Shown here: positions 1,816 through 5,013 of the stretch, piece after piece | Position numbering within the stretch: position 1 is the stretch's first letter | How the letters are laid out: every line of letters starts with the position of its first letter | NCBI GenBank assembly: GCA_023250585.1 | Contig: JAHFAK010000017.1 | Coordinates: 1-17,890 of the forward strand | Length of the DNA: 17,890 nt | From: Deltaproteobacteria bacterium | Lineage (GTDB): Bacteria; Bdellovibrionota_F; JAHFAK01 | Direction: 5' to 3' | The notes under the pieces: model-generated | Database searches by the model: none | What the model was told of the DNA's origin: nothing | What the model saw: only the letters and a program-made list of their open reading frames with translations | Program-made: the position numbers and the translations under genes

Positions 1816-1932
1816 AGTCGAGCGTCTATGTTCTGCTTTTGTGTTTTCTATCGAGCGCGCTTTCCTGTTCTTAATAGTATTATGGAAGCGACGTCGATAG
1901 AAAACACAAAAGCAGAACATAGACGCTCGACT
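1816..1932. repeat. Long palindrome 1: 39-bp perfect arms around a conserved centre
   Basis: Bases 1816-1854 and 1894-1932 are perfect reverse complements over all 39 positions; the match stops sharply on both sides. They enclose a 39-nt centre (1855-1893) that is shared with the palindrome at 4129-4262, in inverted orientation. The inner ends of the arms read TATCGA / TCGATA at both loci; otherwise the arms have no similarity to those of palindrome 2. The element sits between the divergent genes queC and mazG, 20 nt from the queC start. There is no T-tract after the stem and the loop is long, so it is not an ordinary intrinsic terminator. Confidence 0.95.
1855..1893 (+). other. Conserved centre of palindrome 1
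   Basis: This reads GCGCGCTT, a short variable stretch (TCCT), then GTTCTTAATA, G, and TATTATGGAAGCGACG. The second copy (4176-4215, minus strand) has ACCCC in the variable stretch and C at the middle; the rest is the same. The centre is itself a nested imperfect palindrome: CGCTT pairs with AAGCG, and TAATA with TATTA around the middle base. I see no start codon with a useful frame and no matched -35/-10 pair. Confidence 0.85.
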
Positions 1933-1944
1933 CTCTTGGGTTAC

Positions 1945-1995
1945 AGCTTGACCATGGAATACAGAAATAATAGAGATGGATGTCTTGGTCAAGCT
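1945..1995. promoter_or_regulatory. 10-bp dyad upstream of mazG, with possible promoter
   Basis: AGCTTGACCA (1945-1954) and TGGTCAAGCT (1986-1995) are perfect reverse complements, 31 nt apart. The left half contains TTGACC, which could act as a -35 box with TAGAGA 17 nt later as a poor -10. A regulator binding both halves could control mazG. This is inference from the dyad alone. Confidence 0.4.
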
Positions 1996-2013
1996 TTGGA
2001 AGAAAGGAATAGT

Positions 2014-2793
2014 ATGAAAAAGAATTCATTTGATGAACTTATTGAATTAGTAAAAACACTTCGAGGAGAACATGGTTGTCCATGGGATAGAAAACAAACA
2101 CTCGAGAGTTTAAAAAAATATGTTATTGAAGAGGCTTATGAAGTGGTTGAGGCAATTTCACAAAAATCTTTTGATAATCTTAAAGAAGAACTCGGAGATC
2201 TTTTATTTCAGATAGTCTTTTTATCTCATATTGCGCATGAAGAGAAACAATTTACTATTATAGAAGTTATTGAGGCAATGATTGCTAAAATGAAATATCG
2301 TCATCCTCATGTATTCAAAGGTGAAAAAGTGGCAACAGCCGAAGAAGCTCTGGGTAAATGGAATGAAATGAAGATGAAAGAAAAAAAACGTCTTTTTGAG
2401 AGTATCCCGAAGAGCCTTCCAGCGTTAATAAAAGCATTTCGTATTTCTGAAAAAGCCGCAGCAGTTGGATTTGATTGGCAAAAAAATAAAGATGTACTCG
2501 AAAAACTCGATGAAGAACGGCGAGAGTTACAAGAAGCAATTGATGTAAATGATCAAAAGAAAATAGAAGAAGAAATAGGTGATATGCTTTTTGTTTTAGT
2601 CAATATCTCGCGAAAATTTCATCTCGATCCTGAAGAAGCGCTCAATCATATGAATAAAAAATTTATTCAGCGGTTTACCTACATGGAAGACCAAGCAGAA
2701 AAAGAGAATCTCAAAATTTCTGAATGTGCTATTACAAAACTGGAACAATACTGGAGCGATGCGAAAGATCATTTTAGTAAGATATTGAAATAA
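2014..2793 (+). CDS. mazG: Nucleoside triphosphate pyrophosphohydrolase MazG
   Basis: MazG hydrolyses (d)NTPs to monophosphate and pyrophosphate and helps remove non-canonical nucleotides. The protein has 259 residues, typical of the two-domain E. coli type. The N-terminal MazG domain shows LRGEHGCPWDRKQT (16-29), EEAYE (39-43), EELGD (58-62) and KMKYRHPHVF (92-101). The second domain shows the KLDEERRELQEA helix (164-175) and EEEIGDMLF (185-193), so both metal-binding sites appear intact. The start at 2014 is chosen because AAGGA lies 5 nt upstream and the family begins here. A longer open frame from 1711 reads through queC and the palindrome and is not credible. It is divergent from queC. 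A small ORF follows after 60 nt. Like RdgB at 3522-4118, it is a nucleotide-pool cleaning enzyme. Confidence 0.94.
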   Translation: MKKNSFDELIELVKTLRGEHGCPWDRKQTLESLKKYVIEEAYEVVEAISQKSFDNLKEELGDLLFQIVFLSHIAHEEKQFTIIEVIEAMIAKMKYRHPHVFKGEKVATAEEALGKWNEMKMKEKKRLFESIPKSLPALIKAFRISEKAAAVGFDWQKNKDVLEKLDEERRELQEAIDVNDQKKIEEEIGDMLFVLVNISRKFHLDPEEALNHMNKKFIQRFTYMEDQAEKENLKISECAITKLEQYWSDAKDHFSKILK

Positions 2794-2853
2794 TAGGTAT
2801 ATTTTTTTTTAATATTGGCATTGTGTTTGCATCTTTTATCTCATGAGGGCTTT

Positions 2854-3006
2854 ATGAGTTTAAGAGATGCTGAAAAAATCATATTACAAGCAGGAGGATG
2901 GGAAAATATTCCACCGCTGCATCGAAAAATCATCGTCGAAGAATTAAGTCTGAAAGATTACAAGAGGATTAAGAATCGATACATTGTAAAGAAAAAAATC
3001 CGTTAG
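2854..3006 (+). CDS. Small hypothetical protein (50 aa)
   Basis: The 50-residue frame starts MSLRDAEKIILQAGGWENIP and ends in a very basic tail (RYIVKKKIR). I do not recognise the family. The start at 2854 has GAGGG 4 nt upstream; an in-frame TTG at 2815 would add 13 residues but has no better support. It lies 60 nt behind mazG on the same strand, so it could be co-transcribed, and its stop is only 5 nt from the stop of the convergent coiled-coil gene. It has no membrane segment or signal peptide. The high share of Lys/Arg and the helix-like pattern would suit a small nucleic-acid- or protein-binding helix bundle, but that is a guess. It could be non-coding. Confidence 0.5.
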   Translation: MSLRDAEKIILQAGGWENIPPLHRKIIVEELSLKDYKRIKNRYIVKKKIR

Positions 3007-3011
3007 ATAAT

Positions 3012-3476
3012 CTATTTGGAAGTCATCGATACGACCTGCATTTCTATTTTTGACACACGCTTTTCTAATACAATAAATTTTTGTAGATCAACCTGAGTTT
3101 TTAAAGATTCTTTTATTTCTTTAATATCAGTCTCAACGCTCACAAGCCTTTTGTCTATACTGCTGATTTTCTTCTCAAGTTCATCAATTCTTTTAATGAG
3201 GAGTTTTTGCCCAACTTCTAAAGCAGAAATTCTATCTAAAGTCTTAGTTTGGTTAATAGCTATAATGTCTACACTCTCTCTGAGATTTCCAAATTTACCT
3301 TCTAAACTTTCGAATTTACCTTCTAAACTTCCGAATTTTTCTTCTAAGCTTTCAAACTTTTCAAAAAGAAGCTTAGAATCGCTTTTTATGCCTTCGAGGA
3401 TTACTCCTACTTCGTGAGCAGTGAATGTGTCTTTATATTTTTCTTTGGTTGATGGTATCTTTTTTGTAGGTTTCAT
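3012..3476 (-). CDS. Coiled-coil protein of unknown function (154 aa)
   Basis: This soluble protein of 154 residues has no signal peptide or membrane segment. After a Lys-rich start, the region FTAHEVGVILEGIKSD (18-33) leads into a helix with exact seven-residue repeats (KFESLEE, KFGSLEG, KFESLEG, KFGNLRE; about 40-67). A longer heptad-rich coiled coil then runs almost to the end (SALEVGQKLLIKRIDELEKKISSIDKRL and following). Such proteins usually form parallel oligomers and act as scaffolds or partners of other proteins; no enzyme motif is seen. There is no Shine-Dalgarno sequence, but a good promoter places the transcript start at the ATG. It has its own promoter between rdgB and this gene, so it need not belong to the rsmD-rdgB cluster. 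It converges with the small ORF at 2854-3006. Confidence 0.75.
   Translation of the reverse strand: MKPTKKIPSTKEKYKDTFTAHEVGVILEGIKSDSKLLFEKFESLEEKFGSLEGKFESLEGKFGNLRESVDIIAINQTKTLDRISALEVGQKLLIKRIDELEKKISSIDKRLVSVETDIKEIKESLKTQVDLQKFIVLEKRVSKIEMQVVSMTSK
3288..3350 (-). repeat. 21-nt tandem repeat encoding coiled-coil heptads
   Basis: Three 21-nt units (3288-3308, 3309-3329, 3330-3350) differ at only a few positions, and a decayed fourth follows at 3351-3362. Each encodes one seven-residue coiled-coil turn, so the number of heptads could change by slippage without a frameshift. Confidence 0.75.
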
Positions 3477-3483
3477 AGGGGGT

Positions 3484-3511
3484 ATGATAGCAATAATGTC
3501 TAGGTCGTCAA
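3484..3511 (-). promoter_or_regulatory. Promoter of the coiled-coil gene, leaderless arrangement
   Basis: On the minus strand TTGACG (3511-3506) is followed after 16 nt by TATCAT (3489-3484), and then after 7 nt by the ATG at 3476. Transcription would begin at or within a base or two of the start codon. The region between contains only ACCCCCT, so there is no ribosome binding site. Confidence 0.6.
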
Positions 3512-3521
3512 GGAATATACG

Positions 3522-4118
3522 TTATGGCATTGATTTGATAAGAAATTCTCGAAATTTTTTTATTGCTTGAGCTCTATGGCTTATATGATTTTTTTCTTCT
3601 AATGATAGTTCTCCCATATTTTTTTGCAGCGATGGAAGATAAAAAATAGGGTCATAGCCAAAACCATTGTGGCCTTTGGGTTGAAAATCAATACGCCCGT
3701 CGCAGATTCCTTCAAATGTAGTCATTTTTTTCTTTTCATCAATATAGACGATAACTGAAACAAATCGTGCAGTTCGCTTTTCTTGTGGAACATCTTTAAG
3801 CTCTTCAAGGAGCATAACAATTTTCTCTTTAAACGGTAAATTTTTCCCACCGTATCGTGATGAATAAATTCCGGGTCGTCCGCCTAATGCATCAACTACT
3901 AAACCTGAATCATCAGCGAATGTAGGTAAACCAAATGTTTCATAATAAGCTTGTGCCTTTATCTGGGCATTCTCTTCAAACGTTTTTCCCGTTTCTTCTA
4001 CGTCTAGTTTTTTTGAAAATGAGTCAGTTGAAATAATAGATAGTGAAGGAAGACAGAGAAGGGGTAAGACCTCGTCTAATTTTCCTCGATTCTCCGTCGC
4101 AAACAGAATTTTTTTCAT
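3522..4118 (-). CDS. rdgB: dITP/XTP pyrophosphatase RdgB (HAM1/Ham1p family)
   Basis: This enzyme hydrolyses dITP, XTP and related deaminated purine triphosphates to monophosphates and pyrophosphate, keeping them out of DNA and RNA. The 198 residues match the family length. Motifs are TENRGK (8-13), ETGKTFEENAQIKA (42-55), FADDSGL with the catalytic Asp69-Asp70, GRPGIYSSRY (80-89), FGYDPIF (153-159) and the terminal SHR (180-182); all key residues are present. The start at 4118 has GAGGGA 7 nt upstream. The rph-rdgB pair is a widespread bacterial neighbourhood. Here the two are separated by 154 nt filled by a long palindrome, whose outer end overlaps the first bases of this gene's Shine-Dalgarno sequence. 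That could lower or tune translation from the operon transcript. Confidence 0.95.
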   Translation of the reverse strand: MKKILFATENRGKLDEVLPLLCLPSLSIISTDSFSKKLDVEETGKTFEENAQIKAQAYYETFGLPTFADDSGLVVDALGGRPGIYSSRYGGKNLPFKEKIVMLLEELKDVPQEKRTARFVSVIVYIDEKKKMTTFEGICDGRIDFQPKGHNGFGYDPIFYLPSLQKNMGELSLEEKNHISHRAQAIKKFREFLIKSMP

Positions 4119-4128
4119 AGAGTAATCC

Positions 4129-4262
4129 CTCAGTTATAAGGGTGAAGGTAAGTTCTCAAAAAGTATGTATATCGACGTCGCTTCCATAATAGTATTAAGA
4201 ACGGGGTAAGCGCGCTCGATATACATACTTTTTGAGAACTTACCTTCACCCTTATAACTGAG
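4129..4262. repeat. Long palindrome 2: 47-bp perfect arms around a conserved centre
   Basis: Bases 4129-4175 and 4216-4262 are perfect reverse complements over 47 positions, and enclose a 40-nt centre (4176-4215) homologous to that of palindrome 1 but inverted. The arms end inside in TATCGA / TCGATA as at the first locus, and differ otherwise. The element fills the gap between rph and rdgB almost exactly: 10 nt separate it from the last base of the rph stop codon, and 10 nt from the rdgB ATG. In the operon RNA it would be a 47-bp duplex, a plausible RNase III substrate. It has no T-tract. Confidence 0.95.
4176..4215 (-). other. Conserved centre of palindrome 2
   Basis: On the minus strand it reads GCGCGCTT, ACCCC, GTTCTTAATA, C, TATTATGGAAGCGACG. 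It differs from the centre at 1855-1893 by one inserted base, a few substitutions in the variable stretch, and C for G at the middle of TAATA-TATTA. Because the middle is symmetrical, the 11 bp TAATAGTATTA read the same on the plus strand at both loci while everything around them is inverted. Confidence 0.85.
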
Positions 4263-4272
4263 CTGTTTTACT

Positions 4273-5013
4273 TCATAGAGTCGTTAACTCAGGAACAAAT
4301 GTGTGAATAACTTCCTTTTGTAAGGCAAGAATTTCAGTAATTCCAGCTTTACCCAGTTCAAGCATTTCGAGAAACATATCTTTTGAAAATCCTTTTTTTT
4401 CGCCGGTTCCCTGGATTTCAATAAATTCACCATTACTCATCATAACAATATTCATATCAACATCGCAGGAAAAATCCTCTTCGTAGTTTAAATCAAGAAG
4501 CATCTGATTTTCTTTAATGCCTAAACTAACTGCTGTAACGTAATGTATGAGAGGAATCTTTTTAATATCTCCATTATTTTTGAGTTTCTTCAAAGCAAGA
4601 ACCATGGCGACAAAGCTGCCTGTAATGGCTGCAGTGCGAGTACCGCCGTCGGCTTGTATGACATCACAGTCGATCCATAATGTTCGTTCTCCGATTTGTT
4701 TGAGATCAACGACCGTACGTAATGATCGACCGATGAGTCGCTGAATTTCATGAGTTCGACCAGTAACTTTGCCTGTTGAAGCTTCTCTTTTTGTTCGATC
4801 AGTCGTTGAACCGGGAAGCAGGCTATATTCCGCAGTAATCCAGCCCGCTCCTGAATTTACCAGAAACTGTGGTACTCTATTCTCGGCAAAACATGAACAA
4901 AGGACTTTGGTATTTCCATAACAGATTAATACTGATCCATGCGGATGCAAAAGATAATTTGGTTCAATCTTGATATCTCGCAGTTCGTTGTGTTGTCTTC
5001 CATCTGATCGCAT
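4273..5013 (-). CDS. rph: Ribonuclease PH
   Basis: RNase PH is a phosphate-dependent 3'-5' exoribonuclease that trims tRNA 3' ends and works as a hexamer ring. The protein is 246 residues, the usual length. Conserved blocks are MRSDGR at the start, GWITAEYSLLPGST (57-70), the RTHEIQRLIGRSLR block (86-99) with the phosphate-site Arg86, DCDVIQADGGTRTAAITG (115-132) with the phosphate-binding GTR (124-126), DLNYEEDFSCDVDMN (174-188) with metal-binding Asp178 and Asp184, and EIQGTGE (199-205). AAGGA lies 6 nt before the ATG. It starts 9 nt after the aminotransferase stop, which suggests co-transcription with rsmD and the aminotransferase. rdgB follows after palindrome 2. Confidence 0.96.
   Translation of the reverse strand: MRSDGRQHNELRDIKIEPNYLLHPHGSVLICYGNTKVLCSCFAENRVPQFLVNSGAGWITAEYSLLPGSTTDRTKREASTGKVTGRTHEIQRLIGRSLRTVVDLKQIGERTLWIDCDVIQADGGTRTAAITGSFVAMVLALKKLKNNGDIKKIPLIHYVTAVSLGIKENQMLLDLNYEEDFSCDVDMNIVMMSNGEFIEIQGTGEKKGFSKDMFLEMLELGKAGITEILALQKEVIHTFVPELTTL

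Follow-up and report, generated by a model that had tools for sequence, protein, structure and literature searches.

A dispersed family of bacterial hairpin repeats with mutually corrected arms and a core in either orientation

Why do two long palindromes in one bacterial contig share a centre that faces opposite ways, when their arms are exact within each palindrome and differ between the two? The palindromes lie in a 17,890-nt stretch of DNA from a Deltaproteobacteria bacterium (contig JAHFAK010000017.1 of assembly GCA_023250585.1; hereafter the window). A sequence-only reading had recognised in them an element whose centre is conserved while its arms vary yet match perfectly within each palindrome. 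It had further taken the two pairs of arms to be unrelated, and had proposed that arms are derived from, or copied at, the local site, for example by insertion plus template switching. Here, we followed the element through the genome, a single draft assembly of 2.24 Mb in 164 contigs. Taken jointly, our data make it likely that the palindromes belong to a lineage-restricted hairpin family, with carriage by a GTAA-ended miniature inverted-repeat transposable element (MITE), correction of the arms after insertion, and inversion of the spacer by template switching.

Results

Both palindromes were confirmed, with exact inverted arms of 39 and 47 bp around centres of 39 and 40 nt, respectively. As the sequence-only reading had claimed, the centres are shared in opposite orientation, the core being on the plus strand in copy 1 and on the minus strand in copy 2. 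The parts of the two copies in the window are listed here; types A and B are described below.

1816-1854, plus strand: left arm of copy 1, a bare palindrome (type B); 39 bp, exact reverse complement of 1894-1932
1855-1893, plus strand: conserved core of copy 1, 39 nt, GCGCGCTTTCCTGTTCTTAATAGTATTATGGAAGCGACG
1894-1932, plus strand: right arm of copy 1, 39 bp
4114-4121, no strand assigned: target-site duplication TTCATAGA of copy 2, first copy, overlapping the rdgB start codon
4122-4271, minus strand: whole MITE of copy 2 (type A), 150 bp, with ends GTAATCCCTCAGTTA... and ...CTGAGCTGTTTTAC
4129-4175, minus strand: palindrome arm of copy 2, 47 bp, the right arm in the orientation of the core
4176-4215, minus strand: conserved core of copy 2, 40 nt, GCGCGCTTACCCCGTTCTTAATACTATTATGGAAGCGACG
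4216-4262, minus strand: palindrome arm of copy 2, 47 bp, the left arm in the orientation of the core
4272-4279, no strand assigned: target-site duplication TTCATAGA of copy 2, second copy, overlapping the rph stop codon

Copy 1 (1816-1932) is situated between the divergent genes queC (minus strand) and mazG (plus strand), and no target duplication was found at the ends of its palindrome. Copy 2 lies between rph and rdgB, has GTAA ends and a perfect 8-bp target duplication, and its arms at 4129-4175 and 4216-4262 match exactly over 47 bp. Both copies fold far better than 200 dinucleotide shuffles of their own sequence (z -16.4 for copy 1 and -19.7 for copy 2). Joining the flanks of copy 2 rebuilds the empty site, ...CTCTATGAAAAAAATT..., which contains an ATGA overlap of the rph stop codon (TGA) and the rdgB start codon (ATG); inspection of the joined sequence revealed neither arm. 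The insertion duplicated the stop-start overlap, leaving the ends of both genes intact.

A search of the whole genome for the centre returned many further copies. The 33-nt core pattern, with up to three mismatches allowed, gave 71 matches compared with 0 for a reversed control, indicating that the recurrence of the core is not due to chance, and a 26-nt core-only pattern gave 76 matches, 65 of them without mismatch. The proposed family of elements with a conserved middle is thereby borne out by at least 76 core copies, a lower bound, as the covariance-model census of the same genome scored only 150 candidates. The element consists of an asymmetric conserved core of 38-40 nt (CGCGCTT ... GTTCTTAATAGTATTATGGAAGCGACG) within perfect inverted arms of ~37-40 bp.

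Outside this genome, the core was absent from the 385 other genomes searched, which included one class-mate, with the element's own genome serving as the positive control. A covariance-model search of the class-mate, a weak search in which only 150 candidates were scored, also gave no match, nor did searches of plasmids with copy 1, of phages with copy 2, or of viral contigs with the 26-nt core. A 16-mer scan of viral contigs highlighted three stretches, none of which is a copy of the element: the likeness in L098 and L099 is confined to the 16-mer, and L100 lies in sequence without inverted arms. The same type of scan on contigs of other genomes yielded at least 67 stretches in unrelated organisms, which are presumed to be chance 16-mers. 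On the evidence of these searches, the family of at least 76 hairpin elements appears to be restricted to one lineage.

The copies were assigned by hand to two classes, 43 of type A and 33 of type B. Of the type A copies, 36 could be tested with both MITE ends, the remainder being partial, chimeric, or unresolved. These 36 carry the terminal repeats GTAAT..CTCAGTTA on both sides; core and end are 54 nt apart on one, the short side, and ~63-65 nt apart on the other, giving a MITE of ~150-160 bp. An 8-bp target duplication matching at 7 or more of the 8 positions flanks 34 of the 36 (21 perfect and 13 with one mismatch), when small shifts of the ends are allowed; mismatched flank pairs reach this level by chance in 2% of cases. 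Type A copies therefore have the terminal repeats and the fixed-length target duplication of a MITE, everything except a known parent, and they are presumably moved by a DDE-type transposase.

Type B copies are bare palindromes with arms of 36-46 bp and variable outer ends; in three of them, a one-sided indel ends the gap-free arm match at 18. MITE ends are absent by the definition of the class, and no excess of 4-9 bp flank repeats was observed at the palindrome ends (n = 33), so that by terminal repeats and target duplications these copies are not MITEs. Type B may derive in part from type A, or the reverse. According to crude gene calls, most type B copies occupy short gaps between genes and face either way with respect to their neighbours. 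In the right flank of one bare palindrome, L102, the sequence TAACTGAAATAAC resembles a MITE end.

We then asked where the arms come from. The two arms of a copy agree position by position at ~95-96% up to nt 37-38 and drop to background beyond nt 39, whereas the arms of different copies share 62-66% identity; the arms are evidently not the same at every site. Between type B copies, the edit distance per nt grows away from the centre (core, 0.10; inner arm, 0.23; outer arm, 0.43; far flanks, 0.60). ATGTTC is common to most arms at a similar distance, and GGAG, GAGT, or GAGG occurs in 24 of the 33 type B outer arms; either flank has such a motif in only 2 of 33, and shuffled arms give 8.8 +/- 2.5. 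Related arm subfamilies also exist, with several pairs of copies separated by one mirrored change or none. Because four copies (L196, L197, L198, and L200) have an inner arm that is not TATCGA, this hexamer belongs to the arm and not to the core.

These comparisons bear on the proposal that each pair of arms was made anew from host DNA beside the insertion site, to which we attach hardly any probability. The high variability of the outer arms in bare copies (0.43 per nt, compared with 0.10 for the core) and the lack of target duplications around those copies would fit such local copying. The arms are, however, closer to each other than the flanks are (0.43 versus 0.60) and share the outer-arm motif in 24 of 33 cases, the target duplications of MITE copies lie outside the arms, and the empty site of copy 2 has no arm. 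The shared motif and the homology argue against arms taken from the insertion site. Nor are the arms of the two window copies unrelated, as had been claimed: like those of the family as a whole, they are diverged versions of one ancestral arm.

If the arms drift between copies and stay matched within each, changes should be mirrored. We aligned 40 copies and compared each cell with the commonest pair: both sides departed from it in 336 cells and one side alone in only 8, and none of 500 shuffles gave as many mirrored cells. The pattern holds between nearest relatives, with 91 mirrored versus 12 one-sided changes in type A (p = 3e-16) and 123 versus 4 in type B (p = 1e-31). The target duplications, whose two copies are identical at insertion and diverge later, provide a clock for each MITE. 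Among 35 MITE copies, 15 of 280 duplication sites (5.4%) and 12 of 1260 arm sites (1.0%; p = 1e-5) differ between the two sides, copies whose inner 25 nt pair poorly being excluded from the arm counts; with stricter ends, the figures are 13 of 184 and 5 of 828 (p = 6e-7). Taking the duplication as the best match within +/-3 nt reduces its apparent divergence and leaves the arm figure untouched. The ~6-fold lower divergence of the arms shows that they have been corrected against each other after insertion: homogenisation takes place in situ. Mirrored changes thus exceed one-sided ones and the arms diverge less than neutral paired sites, as in an inverted repeat homogenised by template switching.

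Very strong covariation around a conserved loop is equally what would be seen if the element worked as an RNA hairpin, with selection fixing compensatory arm changes one at a time. Many G-U intermediates would then be expected, but one-sided G-U pairs occur in only 8 of ~1,500 cells, and the residual arm mismatches (8 G-T versus 4 A-C) are not significantly enriched in G-T (p = 0.39). Even between nearest relatives, the differences are mirrored pairs, with intermediates rare, and the orientation relative to neighbouring genes is mixed. In an Rfam covariance-model search, no family reached its gathering score, all hairpin look-alikes being below the threshold. A functional RNA is therefore an improbable source of the covariation.

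Next, we examined the orientation of the core relative to the MITE, whose direction can be read from its unequal outer ends. The core is forward in 16 copies and reverse in 18. On a tree built from arms and ends, which is weakly supported, orientation changes 13 times, compared with 11.6 for shuffled labels; core orientation thus carries no phylogenetic signal and is at equilibrium. In one pair of copies, L004 and L107, an identical 107-nt core is found with the MITE ends swapped. The random orientation together with this pair identifies an inverting spacer.

Two other explanations of the flipping deserve consideration. In the first, each transposition passes through a single-stranded hairpin whose repair or copying creates both the perfect arms and the random orientation, with no continuous correction in place. 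Such a step would account for both features at once and for the lack of phylogenetic signal in core orientation, and the genome encodes transposases of the Y1 kind (IS200/RAYT-like), enzymes that work on single-stranded DNA. We nevertheless consider it unlikely, as the arm divergence ~6 times below that of the target duplications indicates that correction persists after insertion, and no core lies in the fetched neighbourhood of any Y1 gene. In the second, a site-specific recombinase flips the core as an invertible switch. Random orientation (16:18), the strict conservation of the core, and the chimeric copies with different arms on either side of it are all compatible with a recombinase. No inverted half-site pair was recognised in the core, no search aimed at a dedicated recombinase was made, and neither template switching nor homologous recombination between 37-bp arms would need such an enzyme; we regard a dedicated switch as very improbable.

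The core itself is predicted to fold into an inner stem with offset single-base bulges (G, T, or A on the left and A on the right) and a two-pair CG helix within. This inner stem is fully complementary in only 4 of 69 copies, three through a change of the left side (CGTCGCTT) and one through the right (AAGCGCGC). The asymmetric core stays nearly constant in more than 70 copies amid drifting arms; it is therefore probably either maintained by selection or required for the spread of the element, a function that is predicted from conservation. The sequence of the core was also read for attC, telomere-resolvase, and dif-like sites, by reading alone, and none was adopted.

The same GTAA-ended MITE with another palindromic cargo (GGATCCCGTGGTCAAGCCACGGGATGACA...) was seen in both directions in L167, L172-L175, L177, L178, L181, L184, and L185, with flank duplications visible in several copies. 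A third repeat of ~250 bp (AGGTGTGAAAGAATCAAG...CTGATTCTTTCACACCT) lies inside MITE ends in L106, L130, L162, L168, and L137, with CTGAG apparently duplicated. L166 holds a minimal MITE of ~44 bp (~3115-3185) between TTTTGAAC duplications and without an internal palindrome. In L167, a phosphatidylserine decarboxylase-like gene (1021-2014, named by eye) stands between MITE ends ~1 kb apart, either by chance or as a composite unit. The four Y1 transposase-like genes are in L163 (1210-1863), L164 (1450-2019), L165 (1384-2058), and L162 (1459-1896); three encode 189-224 amino acids and one, IS200-like, 145. In the window, positions 1-980 contain direct repeats of a 114-nt unit, in a region that by eye encodes Asp-rich, thrombospondin-type-3-like repeats on the minus strand.

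Discussion

The most probable history is one in which a mutation in one arm is either erased or mirrored onto the other. Correction would proceed by template switching within the hairpin during replication, the template being the element's own opposite arm and not host DNA, so that arms could drift between copies and still match within each. The same switching would invert the spacer, so that the core can face either way between the MITE ends. Both effects, homogenised arms and inverted spacers, are known outcomes of template switching between inverted repeats, as documented for yeast (PMC8604942) and for RNA hairpins (PMC8794818). Of the proposal of insertion plus template switching, the switching stands as the best-supported process; neighbouring DNA as the template does not.

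Several points weigh against this account. Homologous recombination between the arms, or a step at each transposition, could also be the source of the inversion. Chimeric copies with arms from two sources (L017, L106, L127, and L130; 7-8 mismatches) demonstrate that recombination between copies also acts. The inner-stem asymmetry is kept in all but the four corrected copies although it lies inside the arms, implying either that it is selected or that the stem primes the switch. The arm counts leave out the copies that pair poorly. Lastly, no parent of the type A MITE was found in the genome: we considered IS66, for which GTAA ends and 8-bp duplications are typical, and the search for its transposase (PF03050), the sole DDE family searched, did not support it.

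In a tentative extension, which we hold to be doubtful, a hairpin-recognising mobile element or host factor would use the core as its recognition signal. The arms would need only to pair, and the flipping of the core would be a by-product. Such an element would be selected for its structure: the loop would stay fixed, and the cell's own template switching would keep rewriting the stems.

Inverted-repeat concerted evolution by template switching is usually inferred one locus at a time. Here, ~36 dated insertions in one genome, each with its own 8-bp clock, make arm correction and core flipping measurable. Our data also illustrate that processes acting on DNA can produce near-perfect covariation, which is normally taken as evidence of a functional RNA.

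Among known systems, bacterial MITEs resemble type A in their length of ~150-160 bp, GTAAT..CTCAGTTA terminal repeats, 8-bp duplications, and many copies. In contrast to them, the interior here is taken up by a long palindrome, whose asymmetric core is conserved and whose arms evolve in mirror fashion; cores without MITE ends also occur, and no parent was found (IS66, the one DDE family sought, is absent). Repetitive extragenic palindromes (REPs), REPINs, and BIMEs, the GTAG- or CGTC-tagged palindromes (PMC3733652), are likewise intergenic, palindromic, and dispersed, with alternative complementary stem residues between copies, and Y1/RAYT-like genes are encoded in the present genome too. Their stems, however, measure 5-13 bp (PMC3733652), compared with arms of 37-40 bp here, and REPs conserve the terminal tag (GTAG/CGTC), whereas our family conserves the middle and varies at the outer ends. 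REPs are defined by short tagged stems and a RAYT gene flanked by the repeat (PMC3733652); none of the four Y1_Tnp genes has a core in its fetched flanks, and neither type A nor type B fits this definition. No such family was described in the repeat literature searched, weak evidence as that is; we classify all copies together as a new variant, restricted to one lineage, of dispersed palindromic, MITE/REP-like repeats.

Closest in behaviour are the template-switched inverted repeats of yeast (PMC8604942) and RNA hairpins (PMC8794818), which share arm homogenisation and a reversible, recurrent spacer inversion. Most of those cases concern one locus each, where the arms are short and the spacer that flips is a few bases long, whereas in the present family a single genome supplies dozens of dated insertions, in which 37-bp arms enclose a flipped spacer of 39 nt. 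In the homoplastic stem-loop microinversions of birds (PMC3123225) and the small inversions of plastids, a segment bounded by inverted repeats also flips back and forth without phylogenetic signal; these inversions are not known to involve a dispersed repeat family with a target-duplication clock. The family described here documents the homogenisation of arms and the inversion of a spacer with unusual clarity.

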